Positions 4,430 through 53,294 of a stretch of 61,990 nt of DNA are shown here, one piece after another (within the stretch, counting starts at the first letter, position 1; every line of letters starts with the position of its first letter). Position numbers and translations under genes: made by a program. This DNA comes from a virus. The stretch is taken from the IMG/VR virus record IMGVR_UViG_3300005537_000027, positions 1-61,990 of that record, one strand, 5' to 3'. The notes beneath the pieces are model-generated. The model was given only the letters and a program-made list of their open reading frames with translations, did not search any database and was not told the DNA's origin.

Positions 4430-4791
4430 CTTCGGTGCATGAACTGCTGTTGGAACTCAATCGGACCTATACCGAAATTCACGAGTTGCGTAGTGCCTTG
4501 GCTGATGCTCTTGTGACTTTCGATATGGGAGCTGAGCACGCCACCAAGTATCACCTCCGCTACTCTGCTGTCATCCACCGCGCAAGGCTGGAGAACCCGA
4601 ATGCTGACAAACGACTTTCAGTTGGTGCCCCTGGCAGCCATTGTTGTGAACCGAGCGGAACGCCAGCGCCGGAAGGTGGACACGACGGGACTGAGGGACT
4701 CGATCCAGCGCAACGGCCTCATCAACCCGATAGTGGTGACGAGGGAGATGGTGCTGGTGGCGGGGGAGCGGAGACTGACGGCGTGCACTGA
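4426..4791 (+). CDS. Small helical protein overlapping the ParB-methyltransferase gene
   Basis: GTG 4426 overlaps the previous stop as GTGA. The first 60 residues (VHELLLELNRTYTEIHELRSAL ... YHLRYSAVIHRARLENPNAD) look like a genuine helical protein. From 4601 on the frame lies beneath the ParB-methyltransferase gene and becomes a glycine/glutamate-rich shadow, so the real protein may be about 60 residues with an unusual overlap, or the tail may be tolerated read-through. Function unknown. Confidence 0.45.
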   Translation: MTSVHELLLELNRTYTEIHELRSALADALVTFDMGAEHATKYHLRYSAVIHRARLENPNADKRLSVGAPGSHCCEPSGTPAPEGGHDGTEGLDPAQRPHQPDSGDEGDGAGGGGAETDGVH

Positions 4792-5998
4792 GCTTGGGCA
4801 TGTCACCATCGCGGTAAGGTTCGCGGAGGACCTCTCGCCGTTCGAGCTCTCGGTGATTGAGCTTGAGGAGAACCTCAAGCGCACGGATCTGAGTTGGCAG
4901 GACGAGGCCCAGGCCATCGCGAAGCTCCACGAGCTTTATTCCAGCGCCGAACCGGGGTGGAGCCAGGCCAAGACCGCACAGGCCCTGAGCATGGCCCCGG
5001 CGCAAGTGTCCACGATCCTGAGAGTGGTGAAGGAGTTCGCCGACCCCCGCATCGCCGGAGCCACCGGCCTCCAACCCGCTTACAACATCATCCAGCGCGC
5101 GGACGAGCGCCGCATTGGTGATGCTATGGGGGACATCGTCCAGGCCAACGCGGATATCTTCGCGGAGCGGCTGGTGGTGGAGACAGGTGGACTTGTGCCG
5201 ACTGATGCAACCGTAGCAATCGGTAAGCCTGTCAACAAGCCTATCTTGGCAGCTACTCCGGTGGCCCCTCCGGAGTCCATCCTCAACACCTCGTTCCTGG
5301 ACTGGGCACCGCAGTACACCGGGCCCAGGTTCTCGTTCATCCACTGCGATTTCCCCTACGGGATGAATGTGTTCGGAGGAGCCATGTCCGGTCGGGACAA
5401 GTGGAACACCTACTCCGACACCCCCGACACCTACTGGGATCTGATCCGCTGCCTCTGCCTGAACCTGGACCGAGTCATGTCCCCCAGCGCCCACCTCATG
5501 TTCTGGTTCTCGATGGAGCACTATGAGGCCACCCGCCGGATCTTCCGAGACCTCGCCCCGTCGCTGGTGTTTTCCCCGTTCCCGCTGCTGTGGCAGAAGT
5601 CCGACAACGTCGGCATCTTGCCGGACTCCAACCGAGGCCCGCGCCGGATCTACGAGACCGCGATGGTCGCCTCCCGCGAGGACCGTTTCATCGTCAAACC
5701 CGTCTCCAACGCCATCGCCGCCCCCACTGACAAGGCCCACCACCCAAGCGCCAAGCCCGTCCCCGTGCTCAAACACTTCTTCCAGATGTACGTGGACGAG
5801 AACACCACGCTGCTCGATCCGACTTGCGGAGGTGCCTCGGCTCTGATCGCCGCTGAGGCTCTGGGCGCCAAGCGTGTCGCTGGGTGTGAAATGGACAAGG
5901 AGCACTGCGCCAACGGCCGTTCCGCTCTCCGCCAGTTCCGCTCCCTCCGTGCCGCCGCGCAGGTGGTCTACGAGAAGGACCGGAAAGATGGTCGCTGA
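4601..5998 (+). CDS. ParB-like N-terminal domain fused to a DNA adenine/cytosine-N4 methyltransferase
   Basis: 465 residues. Residues 7-90 form a ParB/sulfiredoxin-like domain (LRDSIQRNGLINPIVV, then AGERRLTAC with the GERR box). A helix-turn-helix-like linker follows (WSQAKTAQALSMAPAQVSTIL). The C-terminal half is an N6/N4 amino-methyltransferase: catalytic DFPY at 250-253 (a DPPY variant) and the SAM-binding DPTCGGASALIAAEALGA near 405. Such fusions usually modify phage DNA, protecting it from restriction or marking it. The ParB part may guide it to sites. Confidence 0.85.
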   Translation: MLTNDFQLVPLAAIVVNRAERQRRKVDTTGLRDSIQRNGLINPIVVTREMVLVAGERRLTACTELGHVTIAVRFAEDLSPFELSVIELEENLKRTDLSWQDEAQAIAKLHELYSSAEPGWSQAKTAQALSMAPAQVSTILRVVKEFADPRIAGATGLQPAYNIIQRADERRIGDAMGDIVQANADIFAERLVVETGGLVPTDATVAIGKPVNKPILAATPVAPPESILNTSFLDWAPQYTGPRFSFIHCDFPYGMNVFGGAMSGRDKWNTYSDTPDTYWDLIRCLCLNLDRVMSPSAHLMFWFSMEHYEATRRIFRDLAPSLVFSPFPLLWQKSDNVGILPDSNRGPRRIYETAMVASREDRFIVKPVSNAIAAPTDKAHHPSAKPVPVLKHFFQMYVDENTTLLDPTCGGASALIAAEALGAKRVAGCEMDKEHCANGRSALRQFRSLRAAAQVVYEKDRKDGR

Positions 5999-21984: not shown

Positions 21985-24014
21985 GGCAGCAAGCCTCCCA
22001 GTGGGTTATTGGTGGGGAAGTTAGCGCGCACAGTCGCATCATCGATGTTGTAGCTGCGCTGCCCAGTCCTCGGATCGTAAGTAGCGTTGCCGGTCCAAGT
22101 GATGCTCGTGCACCTCGCGTGGAGTACCGCCGTGTTGTACTGGAGCCAGTTCGTGGTGCCGCTGGTGCTGGTGGACTTATTGTTGGTGAAGGTGCAGTTG
22201 TTGCTGTCCACACAGCAGATGTCCCCACGCTCCGTTCCGGTGAGGTTCTGGTCCTGCATGTTGTTGTATGCAGTGTTATTGGTGACAGTGCAGTTCCGAG
22301 ATTGAAAAATATGCACTCCTCGGCCGCCGTTGGTGTAGCAGGTATTGTTGTGGATGAGGCCCTGGTAAGGGTACGCAACTCCCTTCTGATAGGGGTTGTT
22401 GCCCTGCGACCCCAGCCAGTCATCCATAATGATGCCGTTGCCATCAGTATGCCCCGAGCCCGGAACTCCATACTCCCCGTTGTTGTAGCAGATATTGTTC
22501 TGGACGATGATGTGGTAGGTGGCAGCGAGGTCCGCCGCGGATGGAGTATACGCAGTCGCACCAGGCTCGTAGATGCTGATACCCGAGGTCTGGAAGGTGT
22601 TGTAAACTGCGTTGTTGTAGCAGATATTCCCATCCAGCGTGTACCAGTCCTTGAAGAGCGCGCCGATCCCATTGCCGCCGCAGTCATGGCACTTGTTATT
22701 GAGGGCGTTGTTGTGGTGGCCCTGGAAATAGATCCCGTTCTCAGTGGTAAGGGGAGAAGTCCGACCGGCGTTACCTCCGTCGACCTCAAACCCATCCAGC
22801 ATAATGTAATTGCCAGTGACCACAATGATGGACTGCGCGCCGGTGTTCACCCGGATGACAGCACCGAAGGGCGTCGTGCTCCGGTAGACCACATACCCCG
22901 TGAGGCTGTTGGTGTTGCCGCCCGCTGTGAGCCCGTAGCCGGTGGTAAAGTACACCCCTGGCGCCACGTTGACCACGTCGCCGGCCTGGAGCTTTCCACT
23001 ATTATTGGCGCCCTGGATCGTAGCCCACGGCAGAGTCTGGGTCCCAGTCCCGCTTGTATCGCTGCCGTTGGTGGCAACGTACCAGTTCCGCACAGCGGTA
23101 TAATACCCAGTCCCGGCCCCATTGGGGGTAAGCGTAGCGCCAAGCTTCGAGGTCGGCGAGATCGTCGCTGCCATCCTTCCCAGCGAGTGCAGCGTACCGG
23201 CTTGGGCGCTCTTCGGAACCACAGCGGCACTGAGCTGCCGTTTCCTCCCCACAGCCACCGCCTGAGCACTCCTCGGCACAAGCGCAGCACTGGCCGGACG
23301 CTTCCGCCCGAGAGTACCCGCAACCGCACTCGTCGGGACAATGGCCCCACCATTCAGGTGCGAGTTAAGGGCTGTTGCCGCCAGGGCACTCGTCGATGCC
23401 ACCGCTTCCGCCAGCGGCCGTGCCCGGTGGGAGGTGGCCGCTTGTGCACTGGTCGGAGCAATCGCCCACGTGAGGGCTCCCTTCTTGTGCATAATAGCAA
23501 CTAGGTGAGACATTGGAAGGAGTCCTTCTGCAATGTGCCCAGCTGCCAGGATGTCACCAATCGCCCCAACTTGGAACGAACTCGGGCTGATGTCCTCGCT
23601 CAGTGGGCGGGAGCGCGCAAGAGTGCCACTGAGCGCACTCACCGGGTTGATGTTCTCCAGTAGGTTTTTTCCGAGCGCAGGGCTCCAAACACTCGTCATG
23701 TTGTAGTTGATGACAAGTGGACGCAAGCGCCGTAGCGTCGCGACCAGAGTACTTTTGGGTGCCCACGAGATGGAAAGGGCCGCAGGCCTCCAGCGCACCA
23801 ACGCCGCGTTCACCTGCGACGTAGGCTTGAACCCCATCGACATGGCCTGAAACGGGGTGCTCAGCGGCACCAGTCCCGGTGCAGGCAAATGTATCGCCGG
23901 ACTCGGTTCCCCTTGCTCCAGTGGCGTCCGCTGGAGAAACAGGTTCAAGCACCGCTGAGCGCTCGCAATGACGCTCCGTGCTTGATACGTGCCTCCTAGC
24001 AGATTGATCTTCAT
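21981..24014 (-). CDS. Tailspike-like protein: hub module, PTS repeats and right-handed beta-helix
   Basis: 677 residues. Residues 1-50 (LLGGTYQARSVIASAQRCLNLF ... LPAPGL) repeat the hub N-terminal module. Residues about 60-300 hold roughly a dozen 19-residue repeats built on PTS-x-L-x-A-x-L-x-R-x-R-x-L. From about 305 a parallel beta-helix begins (NWYVATNGSDTSGTGTQTLPW; TPFGAVIRVN; NNICYNNGEYGV; NNTCYTNGGRG), the fold of many polysaccharide-degrading tailspikes. It follows the preceding repeat protein directly. Confidence 0.75.
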   Translation of the reverse strand: MKINLLGGTYQARSVIASAQRCLNLFLQRTPLEQGEPSPAIHLPAPGLVPLSTPFQAMSMGFKPTSQVNAALVRWRPAALSISWAPKSTLVATLRRLRPLVINYNMTSVWSPALGKNLLENINPVSALSGTLARSRPLSEDISPSSFQVGAIGDILAAGHIAEGLLPMSHLVAIMHKKGALTWAIAPTSAQAATSHRARPLAEAVASTSALAATALNSHLNGGAIVPTSAVAGTLGRKRPASAALVPRSAQAVAVGRKRQLSAAVVPKSAQAGTLHSLGRMAATISPTSKLGATLTPNGAGTGYYTAVRNWYVATNGSDTSGTGTQTLPWATIQGANNSGKLQAGDVVNVAPGVYFTTGYGLTAGGNTNSLTGYVVYRSTTPFGAVIRVNTGAQSIIVVTGNYIMLDGFEVDGGNAGRTSPLTTENGIYFQGHHNNALNNKCHDCGGNGIGALFKDWYTLDGNICYNNAVYNTFQTSGISIYEPGATAYTPSAADLAATYHIIVQNNICYNNGEYGVPGSGHTDGNGIIMDDWLGSQGNNPYQKGVAYPYQGLIHNNTCYTNGGRGVHIFQSRNCTVTNNTAYNNMQDQNLTGTERGDICCVDSNNCTFTNNKSTSTSGTTNWLQYNTAVLHARCTSITWTGNATYDPRTGQRSYNIDDATVRANFPTNNPLGGLLP

Positions 24015-45489: not shown

Positions 45490-45529
45490 CGTGGGTGGAA
45501 CTTCCCCCACCACAACAAGGAAACTCCAA

Positions 45530-47167
45530 ATGGCAACTAACGGCAAAGCTTCCCCTCAGGCCACCACCCAGGCGCTTTCGGCCCAAGACGCCCTGATGTC
45601 GCTCATCACCTCCGCCCTCCAGGGCAAGGGGACGGACTGGGCGCACCAAGACACCGAGATCCTTCGCGAGGGGACCAAGATCGTTCTCCCCTCCACTCCC
45701 GGTCCGATGCCCATCCCGGCGGCGATCGCAGCCCTTCAGCGCAAGCAGAAGGACGAAGAAACCGAGATGGCCGTGCACGAAGTCATCGACACTTACCCGA
45801 TGGACGGTGCAGTGGCGTTCGTCAAGGCGCTTCGCGAGATCTACGGCTGGGCCAGCCCGACGCCGATCATGAGCTGGTTCGGTCCGCAGCCTCCGGAACT
45901 CCTGACGGTCCAGACCGGCCCGGATACCAAGGTCCAGGTCCCCTGGGGCGAGTTCACTGTCCCCGGCATCGAGAACACCATCGGGGTCTCCACCCAGCAT
46001 ACCGACACCGGCCCTCACTTCGTCATCTACGGCAGGGTCAAGAAGCGCGAGCAGTTCGTGTTGCTGGAACTCGCCCAGCGCACCCGCGAGATCCTCGCCC
46101 GCGAGAGCATCTACAAGGGCCAGGCCATTCGCCTGCGCACGGACTCGGACGGGGACATCGACCACAACAAGCCGCCGGAGTTCCTCCCCACCTCCTACAT
46201 CCGGCCGTCGGAGCTGATCCTCAACGCGGATGAACTCGACCAAGTCGACACCGCGCTCTGGACCCCCATCCGACACACCGCCGAGTGCGTCAAGCACGGC
46301 ATCCCGCTCAAGCGCGGGGTCCTGCTGGAAGGCACCTACGGCACGGGTAAGACCATGACCGCCAACGTTACCTCCAAGGTCTGCGTCCAGCACGGGTGGA
46401 CATTCATTCTCCTCGACGATGTCCGGGCACTCGAAGATGCCCTGCTCTTCGCCAAGCGCTACTCCCCCGCAGTCGTCTTCGCCGAAGACATCGACCGGCT
46501 GCTGGAAGACCGGGACCAGGAGGCCAACGACCTCCTCAACACCATCGACGGCGTGCTGACCAAGAACTCCCAGGTCATCACCGTGCTCACCACGAACTTT
46601 GTCGAGAAGATCGACAAGGCGATGCTGCGGCCGGGTCGCCTGGACGCGGTGATCTCCATCCGCACCCCCGACGCCCACAGCGTCGCACGGCTGATCCACC
46701 TCTACGCTCGGGGCCTGATGGCCGAAGGCGAGGATCTCGCGGACGTCGGCACGGTACTGGCGGGCAACATCCCCGCTACCATCCGCGAGGTGGTCGAACG
46801 TAGCAAACTGGCCATGATCGCCGGTGGCAGGACCCAGATCACTGCCAACGACCTCATGATCAGCGCGAAGGGGATGAAAGACCACCTCACCCTGCTGGCC
46901 GAAGGCCCCAAGGTGCAGTCGCCGGCCGAACGCCTGGGCTCGGTGCTTATCAACGCGCTCGGCTCGCCCGACGCCCTTGCCGCCGATCTGCTCCGGCAGG
47001 AGGCCCAGGCCCTCAAGCTCCAGGTCTACGAACTCCGCAAGAACGTGGTTCAGACCGGCGCCCAGTCCGACCATGTGGCACGGACGTCCACCGCTGTCCT
47101 CGCCGAGGGCCACAAGCAGATCAACAAGAAACTCGACACGGTTGTCGAAGCAGTCGTCGGCAACTAA
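45530..47167 (+). CDS. AAA+ ATPase, FtsH/Cdc48-like ATPase domain
   Basis: 545 residues from ATG 45530. An N-terminal 230-residue domain of unknown type precedes the ATPase core: Walker A LLEGTYGTGKTMTA near residue 265, Walker B AVVFAEDIDRLLED, and sensor/arginine-finger region LTTNFVEKIDKAMLRPGRLDAVI. A helical C-terminus with a coiled coil (LLRQEAQALKLQVYELRKNV) ends it. No protease domain is present, so it is probably an unfoldase or remodeller of a host or phage complex. Confidence 0.85.
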   Translation: MATNGKASPQATTQALSAQDALMSLITSALQGKGTDWAHQDTEILREGTKIVLPSTPGPMPIPAAIAALQRKQKDEETEMAVHEVIDTYPMDGAVAFVKALREIYGWASPTPIMSWFGPQPPELLTVQTGPDTKVQVPWGEFTVPGIENTIGVSTQHTDTGPHFVIYGRVKKREQFVLLELAQRTREILARESIYKGQAIRLRTDSDGDIDHNKPPEFLPTSYIRPSELILNADELDQVDTALWTPIRHTAECVKHGIPLKRGVLLEGTYGTGKTMTANVTSKVCVQHGWTFILLDDVRALEDALLFAKRYSPAVVFAEDIDRLLEDRDQEANDLLNTIDGVLTKNSQVITVLTTNFVEKIDKAMLRPGRLDAVISIRTPDAHSVARLIHLYARGLMAEGEDLADVGTVLAGNIPATIREVVERSKLAMIAGGRTQITANDLMISAKGMKDHLTLLAEGPKVQSPAERLGSVLINALGSPDALAADLLRQEAQALKLQVYELRKNVVQTGAQSDHVARTSTAVLAEGHKQINKKLDTVVEAVVGN

Positions 47168-48021: not shown

Positions 48022-48429
48022 ATGATTGCTGACAACATCACCCCGCTCGTGCCGAAGCCCCTGCTGCCCTACCAGGAGCTGCTCCTCCAGGCGGCGGACC
48101 TGATCGCCCTCAAGGGGTTGGCCAAGTGCACCCAGCAGGATGACGAAGGTCGGGTGTGCCTCCACGGCGCGCTCTCGATCGCCGACAGCGGCCAGCCCTA
48201 CACCGCCTCTCCCACCTACGGCAAGGCCTGCTACGCGGTGGCCAAGACACTGGTGGCGAAGGGCGTGGACAAGAACACGATCGGCTGTGGCCACGTCGAG
48301 GCCTACCCCGGCATGGCCTACTGGAACAACGCCTCCGAGCGGACCCAGGAGGAGGTGATCGAGACCCTCCGCGAAGCCGCCAGGGCGGATTACCCCGTGG
48401 AAGAACTGGAGTTCCCCCATGCCTTTTGA
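48022..48429 (+). CDS. DUF6197-like protein
   Basis: 135 residues from ATG 48022 (AGGAGG, 8 bases). LLLQAADLIALKGLAKCTQQDDEGRVCLHGALSIAD then AVAKTLVAKGVDKNTIGCGH and WNNASERTQEEVIETLREAARA match the DUF6197 pattern: a helix, a GRxCLxGAL motif, and a terminal W-N-N helix. Function unknown. An in-frame ATG at 47930 is a weaker alternative start. Confidence 0.65.
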   Translation: MIADNITPLVPKPLLPYQELLLQAADLIALKGLAKCTQQDDEGRVCLHGALSIADSGQPYTASPTYGKACYAVAKTLVAKGVDKNTIGCGHVEAYPGMAYWNNASERTQEEVIETLREAARADYPVEELEFPHAF

Positions 48430-48808
48430 CTCAACCCCAGCCGCTCCGCTGGTCTGCCCTGCGTGGTTGACTGAGAGGGAGTTCCAGGCCCTGGTCAAGA
48501 CCCGCGATGCCCTCCGGACTGAGGACGCGATCGCGACTCTCTTCGACATGCGGGCGTTCGAGAGAGCTACTATCTGCGGCACAGCACAGTGCATTGGGGG
48601 CTGGATGACCAGCTTCATGGGCATCCTTGGTCCGGAGCGCGTGGAGGTCTGGGAAGACCCCAGGTTCAGCGTTCTGTTCAACTACGAACCTCGTGTCGGC
48701 TCCATCATCATCCCTGTGATGTATGCCACTGCAGCCCAAGCTGCGCAGGCCATCGACAATTACCTCTCTCACGGAGACCCGAGATGGAAGGAGGTGATGC
48801 ACGGGTAG
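48419..48808 (+). CDS. Hypothetical protein, paralogue of the gene at 55060
   Basis: 129 residues overlapping the previous stop. It shares with the protein at 55060 the sequence FDMxxFER ... CIxGWM ... LF ... AxxAAQAxQAIDNYxxxGDPxW. This points to one duplicated family of single-domain proteins. The CI-GWM core recalls host proteins of unknown role in phage accessory regions. Confidence 0.6.
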   Translation: MPFDSTPAAPLVCPAWLTEREFQALVKTRDALRTEDAIATLFDMRAFERATICGTAQCIGGWMTSFMGILGPERVEVWEDPRFSVLFNYEPRVGSIIIPVMYATAAQAAQAIDNYLSHGDPRWKEVMHG

Positions 48809-48907
48809 GGCTCGACCCACCCACCACAATTGAAAGCCCACAAGTACTCCTCACTACCTGCACCTTAGCCAGCCCAATTCCCGCTGGCGCCACTGAGGAG
48901 ACCAAAC

Positions 48908-49222
48908 ATGCGAGCCATCGTGATTAACTCCACCACTCGCCTCGTAATCGAGGTTAACATCCTGGGCGATCGTCAGTCCATTGCCAATGCAGTTGGCGGT
49001 AAGCCAAAGCTGGTTTGGAAACTCGCCAACGGAGATGTGGTGTTTGTTAGCGAAGAGGCGAACAAGAACCATGGCAAGCACTACTTCATTCTCCAGGATG
49101 TAGGATCTCCCTACGAGGGGAATGGTGTGGTGGTCGGAACGGACGAGCACGGGGACTTGGTAGACGCAGCCACCCCGCTACCGCGAGCCAAAGCCACCAC
49201 CACCTTTGTCACCAACTTATAG
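48908..49222 (+). CDS. Hypothetical beta-rich protein upstream of the hammerhead ribozyme
   Basis: 104 residues. AIVINSTTRLVIEVNILGDRQSIANAVGG ... LANGDVVFVSEEANKNHGKHYFIL ... GNGVVVGTDEHGDLVDAA resembles small DUF3846-type phage proteins. The last base of its stop codon is also the first base of the hammerhead, so cleavage would trim its mRNA 24 bases after the stop. Confidence 0.6.
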   Translation: MRAIVINSTTRLVIEVNILGDRQSIANAVGGKPKLVWKLANGDVVFVSEEANKNHGKHYFILQDVGSPYEGNGVVVGTDEHGDLVDAATPLPRAKATTTFVTNL

Positions 49223-49275
49223 GACGAAACGGGGCTATGCCCCGTCGCACCCTGCATGGGGTGCCTGATGAGTCC
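49222..49275 (+). ncRNA. Type II hammerhead ribozyme
   Basis: All conserved parts are present in type II order. Stem II: GGAC 49222-49225 with GTCC 49272-49275. Core GAAA 49226-49229, whose last A pairs with T 49245. Stem III: ACGGGGC with GCCCCGT, loop TAT. Cleavage site GTC ends at C 49246. Stem I: GCACCC 49247-49252 with GGGTGC 49259-49264. Core CTGATGA 49265-49271. Self-cleavage is predicted between 49246 and 49247. Confidence 0.85.
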
Positions 49276-49292
49276 CAGGGAGGTCCCAGTCC

Positions 49293-49541
49293 ATGACATC
49301 GCCCCAGAATTTTGATGCTGCCACGGCGTCGGCCGAGGAGAAACAGCAGAAAGCCTGTGAGGAGATCATCGATCTCGGCATGAGGCTTAACAAGGAAGCC
49401 CAGATCGGAGCCCCTGCGTTTCTGCTCGGAGCGCTGCGCTTCCTGTGCCTCACCATCGACGTGCTTGAAGAGGACCACGCCGAGGTCGCCAACATCATCC
49501 GCCTCACCGCGGTACTCTCACTCGGAAAGGGAACGAAATGA
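49293..49541 (+). CDS. Small helical protein, first of four in tandem
   Basis: 82 residues, starting 18 bases after the ribozyme, with GGGAGG upstream. Fully helical (EEKQQKACEEIIDLGMRLNKEAQIGAPAFLLGALRFLCLTIDVL). With the next three genes it forms a tandem set of similar size and composition joined by ATGA overlaps, probably duplicates of one ancestor. Function unknown. Confidence 0.6.
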   Translation: MTSPQNFDAATASAEEKQQKACEEIIDLGMRLNKEAQIGAPAFLLGALRFLCLTIDVLEEDHAEVANIIRLTAVLSLGKGTK

Positions 49542-49768
49542 CTCCAGCGCAAATAACCGCTGTCAACGACGCCTTTGACTTGCTCAAGGGCGCCACTAAC
49601 GGCAAGTCCACCGAGCTGCTCAAGCTCACCACCGCCATGGCTGTGGCAGCAATCCGCTGCTGCGCCGTCGAGGGCAGGGAGACCGAACTCGCCATCACGT
49701 TCGGCCTTAAGCTCTTCCAGTGCTTCGGCGTCCAAGACGAAGCCGAGAGCAAGGGGTCTGTCCAATGA
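49538..49768 (+). CDS. Small helical protein, second of four in tandem
   Basis: 76 residues in ATGA overlap with both neighbours. VNDAFDLLKGATNGKSTELLKLTTAMAVAAIRCCAVEGRETELAITFGLKLFQCF is helical with the same length and hydrophobic spacing as its neighbours. Confidence 0.6.
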   Translation: MTPAQITAVNDAFDLLKGATNGKSTELLKLTTAMAVAAIRCCAVEGRETELAITFGLKLFQCFGVQDEAESKGSVQ

Positions 49769-49989
49769 TCTCCCCGGAGCAGGGCAACGCCCTCATGAGC
49801 CAGATCGCCGAGATGTGCGATCATGATCCCAACACCATCCTCACGGTGTGCCTGGATCTCACCACCAGTTTCATCGACGTGTTTATGGTCGACGCTCCGG
49901 CCGAGGCCAAGCGCGAGATCGCGGAGGGGTTGGGCGCGAGCCTTCTCGCCTCCATCACCAGGGAGGATGCAGATGTCCGTAAGCAATGA
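49765..49989 (+). CDS. Small helical protein, third of four in tandem
   Basis: 74 residues. GNALMSQIAEMCDHDPNTILTVCLDLTTSFIDVFMVDAPAEAKREIAEGLGASLLASI aligns by eye with the next gene (QALCEQIAKLCNNDGGEVFDLFSDLMATFIAQ), which supports duplication. Confidence 0.6.
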   Translation: MISPEQGNALMSQIAEMCDHDPNTILTVCLDLTTSFIDVFMVDAPAEAKREIAEGLGASLLASITREDADVRKQ

Positions 49990-50224
49990 AGACGCCCAGG
50001 CGCTGTGTGAGCAGATCGCAAAGCTCTGCAACAACGACGGCGGCGAGGTCTTTGACCTTTTCTCGGACCTGATGGCGACGTTCATTGCTCAGCGCGTCTC
50101 CGGCGGTAAGGTCGAGCAGCAACTCGCAGTCCAGATCTTCCTCACCCAGCTTCGCCAGAAGCTCGGCCACGAGCCACCGGACCCGATGGTGATCCACCCC
50201 GCCCAGCCCCAGACCCAGCAATAG
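49973..50224 (+). CDS. Small helical protein, fourth of four in tandem
   Basis: 83 residues from ATG 49973 (GGAGG upstream). Same helical pattern as the third gene, then a proline/glutamine-rich tail (HPAQPQTQQ). The set may form hetero-oligomers. No function is visible. Confidence 0.6.
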   Translation: MSVSNEDAQALCEQIAKLCNNDGGEVFDLFSDLMATFIAQRVSGGKVEQQLAVQIFLTQLRQKLGHEPPDPMVIHPAQPQTQQ

Positions 50225-50300
50225 CCCCAGCAGCACCTTCCCACGCACCTTAACCACAACTAACTTCCATGCACCTGCGGGTGCGGAGCCCAGACCACAA

Positions 50301-50717
50301 ATGGCACGGTTGACTTGTACTCTCGTTGGAATGCACTTCCGGCCTCCGGCCAAAGCCATCCTGGCGAATTTGCCAGCCGGTGCTCAGCTCGACCTAGTCC
50401 CTGAGCCCGACAATATGTACGACGAGCACGCTGTCAAGGTGGTGGTGGACCCTGGCGAGGTCCCCTCTACCCAATACGAAGAACTCGACAACGCCATGGC
50501 TGGACAAGGCCACGACTCTGCCGAGTTCCTCAAAGGTCCCCCGTTCCATCTGGGGTATATTGGTTCCAAGCCCGGTAGGAAAGGTCCCATGCCAGGGATC
50601 ACATACGCGCCGGATCTCGCCCCCGTCCTGGCCCAGGCGGATGACTACAAAGCCGAACTCGGGTTTGACCTGAGCGGCGACCCGATCGTCTACGTCACAA
50701 TCATGGCTCACGAGTAG
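50301..50717 (+). CDS. HIRAN-domain protein
   Basis: 138 residues. LTCTLVGMHFRPPAKAILANLPAGAQLDLVPEPDNMYDEHAVKVVV and later FHLGYIGSKPGRKG are the conserved blocks of a HIRAN domain, which in helicases such as HLTF binds 3' DNA ends. As a free-standing domain it may recognise DNA ends or damage. It lies upstream of the transposase-like gene, the repeat array and the UvrD-like helicase. Confidence 0.75.
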   Translation: MARLTCTLVGMHFRPPAKAILANLPAGAQLDLVPEPDNMYDEHAVKVVVDPGEVPSTQYEELDNAMAGQGHDSAEFLKGPPFHLGYIGSKPGRKGPMPGITYAPDLAPVLAQADDYKAELGFDLSGDPIVYVTIMAHE

Positions 50718-50739
50718 CCAAACCAGGGAGCACATCGAA

Positions 50740-51600
50740 ATGGCTGAAAGTACCCGCCCGGACCTTGATCCGGTAGCACGCCTCACCCGCGACTTGCGCA
50801 ACGCTGCCAGAACCCTTTCGAGCGACGAGGCCAGATTTCTGGTCGACGCATACTACGCGATGCAACGAGACCGCATTCGCGCCGCCCACCAGGAACGGAC
50901 CCTCGCCGAGGGCTCCGAACCGCACGACACCATGCAGTGGTTGTTGGTGCAACGCGAGACCCTGGAAAAGCAGGTCGCTCGCGCGCTCGACGTCTACAGC
51001 AACGCGCATCCCGCTGGGGAATGGGCGCGGTCTATCTGCGGCATCGGCCCGATCATCGCGGCCGGGCTGCTGGCCCATATCGACATCACCAAAGCCCCCA
51101 GCGTCGGGCACATTTGGCGTTTCGCCGGCCTCGATCCCACGGTCAAGTGGGAGAAGGGTCAGAAGCGGCCCTGGAACGGTGCGCTCAAGCGTCTCTGCTG
51201 GCTCATCGGGGAGAGCTTCACCAAGGTCTCCTCGAACGAGAACGACACCTACGGGAAGATCTACAAGGCCCGGAAGGAACTCGAAACCCAGCGTAACGAG
51301 GCGGGGCATTACGCGGACCAAGCCAAGGCTGCCCTGGCCGCGAAGAAGTTCGGAGCGGACACGCAGGCCCGGAAACACTACGAGGCCGGCCGTCTCCCGC
51401 CGGCACGTATTCATCTCCGTGCGCAGCGGTATGCGGTGAAGCTCTTCCTCGCGCACTTCCACCATGTGTACTACGAGATCCACTTCGGCAAGGCTCCGCC
51501 GATGCCCTATATTTTCACCGCCGAGGCCGCGATCACCCACGGCCAGCACGTTCACTATATCGCGCCCCCGAACTGGCCGATCGCCCAAGCGGCGGAGTAG
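50740..51600 (+). CDS. IS110-family C-terminal (Transposase_20) helix-hairpin-helix protein without the RuvC-like domain
   Basis: 286 residues (GGGAG upstream). Residues 95-165 hold the helix-hairpin-helix and following strands of IS110/IS116 transposases (ICGIGPIIAAGLLAHID, then WRFAGLDPTVKWEKG and ALKRLCWLIGES). The N-terminal 90 residues are helical and lack the DEDD RuvC-like fold of active IS110 enzymes. The position of the catalytic serine (SG before the arginine-rich helix) reads KWEKG. It is therefore probably a DNA- or RNA-binding derivative, not a working transposase. The repeat array begins 24 bases after its stop. Confidence 0.78.
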   Translation: MAESTRPDLDPVARLTRDLRNAARTLSSDEARFLVDAYYAMQRDRIRAAHQERTLAEGSEPHDTMQWLLVQRETLEKQVARALDVYSNAHPAGEWARSICGIGPIIAAGLLAHIDITKAPSVGHIWRFAGLDPTVKWEKGQKRPWNGALKRLCWLIGESFTKVSSNENDTYGKIYKARKELETQRNEAGHYADQAKAALAAKKFGADTQARKHYEAGRLPPARIHLRAQRYAVKLFLAHFHHVYYEIHFGKAPPMPYIFTAEAAITHGQHVHYIAPPNWPIAQAAE

Positions 51601-51624: not shown

Positions 51625-53294
51625 GAGTGTACCTACGAAGCTGAGCGAACCGCGATTCTGGAGTGTACCATAGCTGCCGAGTGAGCCTGCATATCTGAGT
51701 GTTCCGAGCTTCGCAAGTGAGCCAGCTAGGGGTTGATTGTACCGTGAAGTGGGAGCGAGCCGTTGAACTTGAGTGTACCACAGCTTGAGAGCGAGCCAAT
51801 GGAGTTGAGTGCACCAAAACATTGGAGCGAGTCGCCGTATTAGAGCGCACCGTGTACGAAGAGCGAGCCAGAACTTAAGAGTGTTCCGAAGTATGTGAGC
51901 GAGCCCGAACCCGTGAGTGTATCGAAATTGCCGAGCGAGCCTTAGGCATTGAGAGCGCCGTGCAAGTGGAGCGAGCCGTCGAGCAAGAGTGTACCATTGC
52001 AAAGGAGCGAACCGGGTGATTTGAGTGTACCCGCGTTGCGGAGTGAACCTTGAGACGGAGTGTGCCGTAGAGCTGAGTGAGCCGCAAGTTGTGAGAGTTC
52101 CGTTGGTAGCGAGCGAACCGAGCGTATGTGAGCACCGATATTGTAGAGTGAGCCATGTAGGTGTAGTGTACCACGCCACATGAGCGAGCCATTAATCTTG
52201 AGCGTTCCATTGTCAGGGAGCGAGCCGCTCGTAAGGAGTGTTCCGTATCGCGTGAGCGAGCCACTGGTTACGAGTGTACCGCGTTATGAGAGCGAGTCAT
52301 TTGTGATGAGTGTACCAAAACCTATGAACGAGCCATATGCTCAGAGCGCACCGTATCTAGAGAGCGAGCCATATGCTCAGAGTGTTCCGTTCCTCTTGAG
52401 CGAGCCATTGATCTGTAGTGTACCGTGGTATGAGAGCGAGCCTTTTGCCCAGAGCGCACCGTCATTTGCGAGCGAACCAAGCAGCATGAGCGCCCCGAAC
52501 GTGCTGAGTGAGACGAATAACTCGAGAGTACCGTAAAAAGGGATCGAGCCATGATCGTTGAGAGTACCATTGTGAATGAGCGAGCCAGCTTGTTAGAGAG
52601 TCCCGTATCCTGAGAGCGAGCCAACTTGCTAGAGTGTCCCATCACTGGCGAGCGAGCCTTAATTGCAGAGCGTACCGTAAAGTGTGATCGAGCCGTAGCT
52701 GTAGACGAGCGAACCACAAGCGCCGAGAGTACCATCATTGACGAGTGAGCCACCAGCGCTGAGTGTACCGTGACCCCGAAGCGAGCCCTATCAGCCACGA
52801 GTGTACCGTTGTCCGGGAGCGAACCATAACATATGAGCGTCCCGAAGCCTATGAGTGAGCCAACGGCAATGAGTGTGCCGTACCCTGTGAGCGAGCCGAA
52901 CACCGAGAGAGTACCAGCCCGCATGAGCGAGCCACTGTCCTTGGAGTGTACCATACCACGGGAGCGAGACAAACTGGTCGAGAGTACCGTGTCAAAGGAT
53001 CGAACCGAGAGTTTTGCGTGTACCGCTGTGCCTGAGTGAGCCGACAGCTTTGAGCATACCGAAACGCTTGAGCAAGCCGTTATGGCCGATTGTACCACTT
53101 CACCTGAGCGAGCCATGCTGTTCGAGTGTACCATTCCACGGGAGCGAGCCAGAACGTCCGAGCGTACCGTTCCATTTGAGCGAGCCATGATGTCCGAGAG
53201 CACCATTCCATCTGAGCGAGCCGTTATGTCCTAGCGTACCGTTCCGCCTGAGCGAACCTTCTTCGCCGAGAGCGCCATCTTCGCCGAGTCACCC
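51625..53294. repeat. 18-bp tandem array: alternating GAGYGTACC / GAGCGAGCC with 9-nt variable segments
   Basis: About 93 units of 18 bp. Odd units carry GAGYGTACC (variants GAGTGTTCC, GAGCGCACC, GAGAGTACC), even units GAGCGAGCC (variants GAGTGAGCC, GAGCGAACC); the next base is usually a purine, then about 8 variable bases. A pair is 36 bp. The phase is kept for long runs, with isolated 1-3-base slips. A few variable segments recur (ATATGCTCA twice). Stops interrupt the reading frames of both strands, so a single protein is unlikely. It lies between the transposase-like and helicase genes and ends 15 bases before the helicase ATG. Confidence 0.92.

Follow-up and report, generated by a model that had tools for sequence, protein, structure and literature searches.

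A type II hammerhead ribozyme at a phage gene junction, a probable self-cleaving punctuation mark in accessory mRNA

The window, i.e. the whole stretch of DNA analyzed, is a 61,990-base virus record from a phage whose portal protein is P22-like. Sequence inspection, a structural descriptor, and a covariance model identified a whole type II hammerhead ribozyme of 54 bases on its plus strand (49222–49275). On balance, this element is probably a self-cleaving punctuation mark in the phage's accessory mRNA. By comparative sequence analysis, the ribozyme is complete, its pairing is under selection, and it is conserved at its junction in related phages; it is built onto the stop codon of the upstream gene, with a putative ribosome-binding site directly behind it. 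If the assignment is true, phages employ self-cutting RNA as gene punctuation.

Anatomy and detection of the ribozyme

The ribozyme RNA reads GGAC-GAA-ACGGGGC-UAU-GCCCCGU-C/GCACCC-UGCAUG-GGGUGC-CUGAUGA-GUCC, with the slash at the predicted cut. Its 5′ strand GGAC (49222–49225) forms the 4 bp of stem II with GTCC (49272–49275), a helix that covaries in relatives, and is followed by the core bases G12, A13, and A14 (GAA, 49226–49228), assigned from sequence and alignment. Stem III (49229–49245), supported by sequence, folding, and the model, is a hairpin of 7 bp between ACGGGGC (49229–49235) and GCCCCGT (49239–49245) with the loop TAT; it takes in A15.1-U16.1 and C15.2-G16.2. H17 is C49246, and the hammerhead rule predicts cleavage after this base, between 49246 and 49247, in agreement with the site named in the initial annotation. 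Stem I (49247–49264; sequence and model) is a second hairpin, in which GCACCC (49247–49252) and GGGTGC (49259–49264) form 6 bp around the loop TGCATG, with an extra wobble pair possible between T49253 and G49258. The core strand CUGAUGA (49265–49271), again assigned from sequence and alignment, leads into the 3′ strand of stem II. Stem II is open in this permutation and stems III and I are closed, the predicted cut lying between the two closed hairpins. The following class features were found: the cores CUGAUGA and GAA, A15.1-U16.1, an H17 other than G, and the three-stem permutation with stem II open. The MFE fold contained all three stems together at a z value of −1.74.

A descriptor scan for the three hammerhead types on both strands retrieved a single hammerhead in the window. 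Order-1 Markov sequence with the composition of the window, 128 Mb in all, gave 0 matches to the type II descriptor; the 95% upper bound of the chance expectation was about 0.003 per window. A covariance model derived from 80 viral type II hammerheads other than that of the window assigned 60.7 bits to the element (E = 5.2e-17), and the runner-up in the window scored 9.5 bits. A type II hammerhead with an intact core and three stems, as initially read from the letters, is thereby confirmed at 49222–49275 at the level of sequence.

Searches with the Rfam model RF02276 (Hammerhead_II) at gathering and lax thresholds reported no hammerhead in the window. In four other stretches (L079, L061, L005, and L100) the Rfam model found only two ribozymes, whereas the descriptor found many more with good cores. 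The Rfam model is insensitive to the subgroup to which the window's ribozyme belongs and seems to be tied to another one; if so, many examples escape the type II model that Rfam now provides. The RF02276 cut-off is a property of the model and does not define the class, and membership therefore rests on core, permutation, and covariation.

Viral type II hammerheads were collected by a search with the exact core pattern, giving at least 239 descriptor matches in at least 119 stretches, of which a single one holds up to 12 hammerheads among the matches listed. In an alignment of 80 viral type II ribozymes from the matches listed, 96.2% of the pair cells form, and 421 cells were changed on both sides, compared with 130 after shuffling and no more than 75 when the register was slid. 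Position counts were determined for 197 non-redundant viral type II hammerheads among the matches listed, including the window's own; gene calls were simple open reading frames (ORFs), and kinship was handled by removal of similar sequences. The first six pairs of stem I were present in 192 of the 197 listed, loops I of 5–6 nt started with U in all 170 listed cases and usually ended with G, and the base preceding the ribozyme, A(−1), was found in 182 of the 197 listed. The loop UGCAUG of the window fits the viral type II pattern (U first, usually AUG or G last). The 6-bp stem I, the U-initial loop I, and A(−1) are signs of the subgroup that the initial annotation had left unused. Just after stem II the window has C; A is commoner at this position, and C also occurs in 32 of the 197 listed.

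A pseudoknot between loop I and the 3′ tail was considered and rejected: the true loop–tail pairing was not longer than that obtained with tails swapped among ribozymes. A pseudoknot of 4 or more bp is absent in the window and in most viral type II matches listed; in the window, loop I and tail can form no more than 2–3 bp while stem I stays closed, and the pairing CCUG/CAGG needs its partial opening. As a separate observation, a cluster of three type II ribozymes is shared by L172 and L174, and L185 has one of the three; these assemblies are assigned to Phycicoccus jejuensis, Streptomyces iakyrus, and an Eggerthellaceae MAG, and probably represent one phage contig spread by contamination.

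Position at the gene junction and conservation in relatives

The upstream gene (48908–49222, plus strand) is an ORF of 104 amino acids with a weak match to DUF3846 (PF12957, E = 4e-4, below the cut-off). Its TAG stop codon occupies 49220–49222, and its final base is the first base of the ribozyme, a 1-base overlap already recognized in the initial annotation; the middle base of the stop (49221, plus strand) is the A(−1) defined by comparison with viral type II hammerheads. On the other side, a Shine–Dalgarno-like AGGGAGG (49277–49283, plus strand) begins two bases past the ribozyme end, 9 nt before the ATG at 49293. This start codon belongs to an ORF of 82 amino acids (49293–49541, plus strand), the first in a run of four small ORFs (82, 76, 74, and about 85 amino acids), of which the first three are linked by ATGA overlaps. 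An intrinsic terminator was rejected, as no G+C-rich hairpin followed by a U run occurs within 49222–49293.

No phage relatives of the region 48400–50800 were found at the DNA level, and no IMG/VR relatives of the 104- and 82-residue proteins were found. Sequence patterns of the AAA ATPase, taken from 45491–47164, gave no match in IMG/VR, and isolate phages yielded only homologues below 60%; the ATPase itself (45491–47167) is related, at about 40%, to Klebsiella, Erwinia, and Pseudomonas phage proteins that carry FtsH-like or 26S-proteasome-regulator-like annotations. Elsewhere in the window, the ORF at 52180–52536 contains imperfect SEPLxxSVP repeats, and the protein encoded at 4601–5998 has a ParB N-terminal domain fused to an N6/N4 DNA methylase domain.

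A search with the portal protein retrieved two records of 58 and 63 kb with 71% portal identity, the closest relatives found. Each contained exactly one match to the covariance model, with E values of 3.5e-15 and 8.1e-17; strand and the transposase-like gene downstream are the same, and all three ribozymes sit between a DUF6197-type gene and a HIRAN-like gene. The stem sequences differ across the window and both relatives, and every stem still pairs; stem I is different in all three (GCACCC/GGGUGC, ACGAGG/CCUCGU, and ACGACG/CGUCGU). The initial annotation had made its proposal depend on conserved stems in relatives, and in both of them the stems have been rewritten with pairing intact. In G003, one of the two relatives, the ribozyme likewise begins on the final base of a TAG stop, that of a DUF6197-type gene. 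The 104-residue gene was looked for in both relatives and not found, and past the ribozyme both have a gene of about 470 residues; the junction element has persisted while neighboring genes turned over. The neighborhoods of relatives of the transposase-like gene (50 loci) contained no hammerhead. In G003 (L321), a 9-bp hairpin, GAGCGGGCC-TTC-GGCCCGCTC, was observed directly 3′ of the ribozyme at approximately 23400–23425, resembling the hairpin added in RiboJ.

The placement on a stop codon is a regular feature of the collection. The upstream stop ended at −3 to +1 of the ribozyme in 115 of the 197 listed, versus 18 of 888 control AGGAC sites taken from the same sequences, and the commonest register among the viral type II matches listed was +1 (TA[G]), as in the window. 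At −30 to +10, a stop of a same-strand ORF was present in 158 of the 197 listed, versus 37 of the 197 on the opposite strand and 12.4% at random. A search for upstream stops inside the 5′ strand of the ribozyme is uninformative because GGACGAAAC is stop-free in every frame. A(−1) was retained in 72 of the 80 listed ribozymes with a stop elsewhere; as it is kept even away from stops, the ribozyme itself needs this A. With the stop codon providing it, the overlap of stop and ribozyme is economical. A Shine–Dalgarno-like site was present between ribozyme and start codon in 131 of 139 cases among the matches listed, and the ribozyme often fills the gap from the stop codon to the ribosome-binding site. 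As a counterpoint, the compactness of phage genomes could by itself bring ribozyme and stop codon this close together.

The neighboring proteins were diverse and included anti-restriction proteins, ATPases, resolvases, and unknowns. No recurrent neighbor gene family was found, the maximum being 2 of 63 per side among the matches listed, which argues that the element serves the junction and not a particular gene. Neither the stop-codon register nor the type III hairpins described below were reported in the open-access literature searched. The element itself is known in kind; the regularities of position and hairpins are the new part.

The predicted cleaved ends and alternative explanations

Once transcribed, the ribozyme would cut after C49246. 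The upstream mRNA would end 24 bases past its stop codon, its terminus consisting of the stem III hairpin and a 2′,3′-cyclic phosphate, and this end would resist 3′ exonucleases. A hairpin plus a cyclic phosphate is resistant to 3′ exonucleases, and a 5′-OH alters RNA decay. The downstream mRNA would start at G49247 with a 5′-OH and the stem I hairpin, a fixed leader independent of the upstream sequence. Both halves could then decay and be translated independently, and gene cassettes could be exchanged at the junction with their neighbors undisturbed.

The upstream cleavage product of type I and II hammerheads ends in the stem III hairpin, whereas that of type III ends unpaired; type III ribozymes should therefore need another hairpin if the hairpin matters. 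This idea came from a first set of type I and III ribozymes, in which stable hairpins end at the 5′ edge of type III ribozymes among the matches listed, and it was afterwards tested anew on a second set that differs in the sequence of stem II. By the original 6-bp criterion, such hairpins were present in the second set in 3 of 15 type III versus 2 of 48 type I ribozymes listed. With a 5-bp criterion, the counts for type III among the matches listed were 10 of 15 in set 1, 5 of 15 in set 2, and 15 of 29 after removal of redundancy. The corresponding values for the other listed ribozymes were 6 of 91 (type I), 10 of 118 (type II), and 16 of 209 (both), versus 7.4% at random; the difference between type III and types I plus II was significant among the matches listed (Fisher p = 4e-8, 5-bp criterion). 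About half of the type III ribozymes listed have no extra hairpin by the criterion used. No excess was found at the 3′ edge (3 of 91, 3 of 118, and 0 of 29 for types I, II, and III among the matches listed).

Given the 5′-edge excess in type III and the negative mirror test at the 3′ edge of type I, the compensated feature appears to be the hairpin that closes the upstream message at its 3′ end. This pattern in the sequences supports a role in 3′-end formation and mRNA separation, and less one at the downstream 5′ end; selection has probably acted mainly on the hairpin-capped 3′ end that the upstream message would gain. The extra hairpins might instead guard folding of the ribozyme, although type I has none. 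As an observation in its own right, a recurrent hairpin, GTGTCTTCAAAGACAC, occurs with close variants 5′ of type III ribozymes in many viral contigs (L217, L226, L242, L296, and others); mobility or a function of its own is possible for this unit.

A more general proposal, which we put forward tentatively, is that all three types of phage hammerhead act as self-cleaving 3′-end formers, an alternative to terminators, with stop codon, hairpin, and self-cut as the unit. The hairpin would be stem III in types I and II and a separately recruited one in type III, and the element of the window would be one instance. The position rule and the type III compensation turn an unclear role into a specific question, whether the ribozyme determines where the upstream message ends and how long it lasts.

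Among the alternatives, a natural insulator of the RiboJ kind, in which a clean 5′-OH leader and the stem I hairpin uncouple the downstream genes from upstream translation and structure, survives best and is nevertheless unlikely. It would account for the Shine–Dalgarno-like sites that follow the ribozymes (131 of 139 among the matches listed) and for the hairpin directly behind the G003 ribozyme, as in RiboJ. It is difficult to reconcile with the lack of a general hairpin excess at the 3′ edge among the matches listed, with the unpaired 5′ end of type I that stays uncompensated, and with the finding that the tightest positional rule applies to the upstream stop and not to the start codon.

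The tight stop register places the 5′ strand of the ribozyme within the footprint of a terminating ribosome. Cutting might accordingly be gated by ribosomes: one terminating at the TAG would cover GGACGAAAC, and cleavage would report that the upstream gene is untranslated. The 115 of 197 listed ribozymes with stops at −3 to +1 are in line with such gating, which we consider improbable since compactness and the conserved A(−1) account for the register without it, and most type III ribozymes listed lie 20–55 nt past the upstream stop, beyond the footprint.

A translational switch, in which the folded ribozyme masks the Shine–Dalgarno site at 49277–49283 and cutting frees it, is suggested by the start of this site two bases past stem II and by the CCUG/CAGG pairing of loop I and tail, possible only with stem I partly open. 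It is very improbable given the predicted accessibility of the ribosome-binding site, which was 0.51 uncut versus 0.54 cut in the window and 0.516 versus 0.561 for 130 other ribozymes among the matches listed (25 up, 15 down).

A chance fold or a decayed, inactive ribozyme would fit the z value of only −1.74 and the C in place of the commoner A just after stem II, but is extremely improbable in view of fewer than about 0.003 chance matches expected per window, a model E value of 5e-17 with all core bases intact, and the syntenic copies with compensated stems in relatives.

Comparison with known systems

Type II hammerheads were described in phages and prophages, frequently in series between genes, and processing of long phage transcripts was proposed as their role (Perreault 2011, PMC3088659). 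In the same study, other hammerheads self-cleaved in vitro and in E. coli, and a phage-associated triple hammerhead array self-cleaved in vivo in E. coli. A later paper reported an enrichment of hammerheads near Mu-like phage genes, the reason for which is unknown (PMC10085705). The statement in the initial annotation that the roles of phage hammerheads are unclear was fair, and the present results narrow them towards gene-junction punctuation.

The published type II ribozymes (PMC3088659; RF02276) are like that of the window in the open stem II, the closed stems I and III, the core, and the cut site. Their consensus (PMC3088659) differs by a pseudoknot between loop I and the 3′ tail, with at least 4 bp in most members, which the window and most viral type II matches listed lack; these have instead a 6-bp stem I, a U-initial loop of 5–6 nt, and A(−1). 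The stop-codon register is not mentioned in the main text of PMC3088659. Phage type I and III hammerheads (IMG/VR) share the core and the intergenic sites, and a stop codon is often adjacent to type I as well; they differ in the open stem, and type III has no built-in hairpin before the cut but often a separate one.

RiboJ (PMC7536230) is likewise a hammerhead between genetic parts that gives a standard 5′ leader, and its cleavage in E. coli is high; in vivo, most hammerhead insulators in synthetic circuits cut about 84–94% of the mRNA, and uncut mRNA is taken to decay faster in the accompanying model (PMC7536230). Unlike the window's ribozyme, RiboJ is engineered, follows a promoter instead of sitting on a stop codon, and carries an added 3′ hairpin; its purpose is given as normalization of the 5′ UTR, not as formation of an upstream 3′ end. 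The theta (HDV-like) ribozymes of gut phages (PMC10879173) have an HDV-like fold and lie beside tRNA 3′ ends, not between protein genes, but they too are phage ribozymes, for which the making of a defined RNA 3′ end has been proposed.
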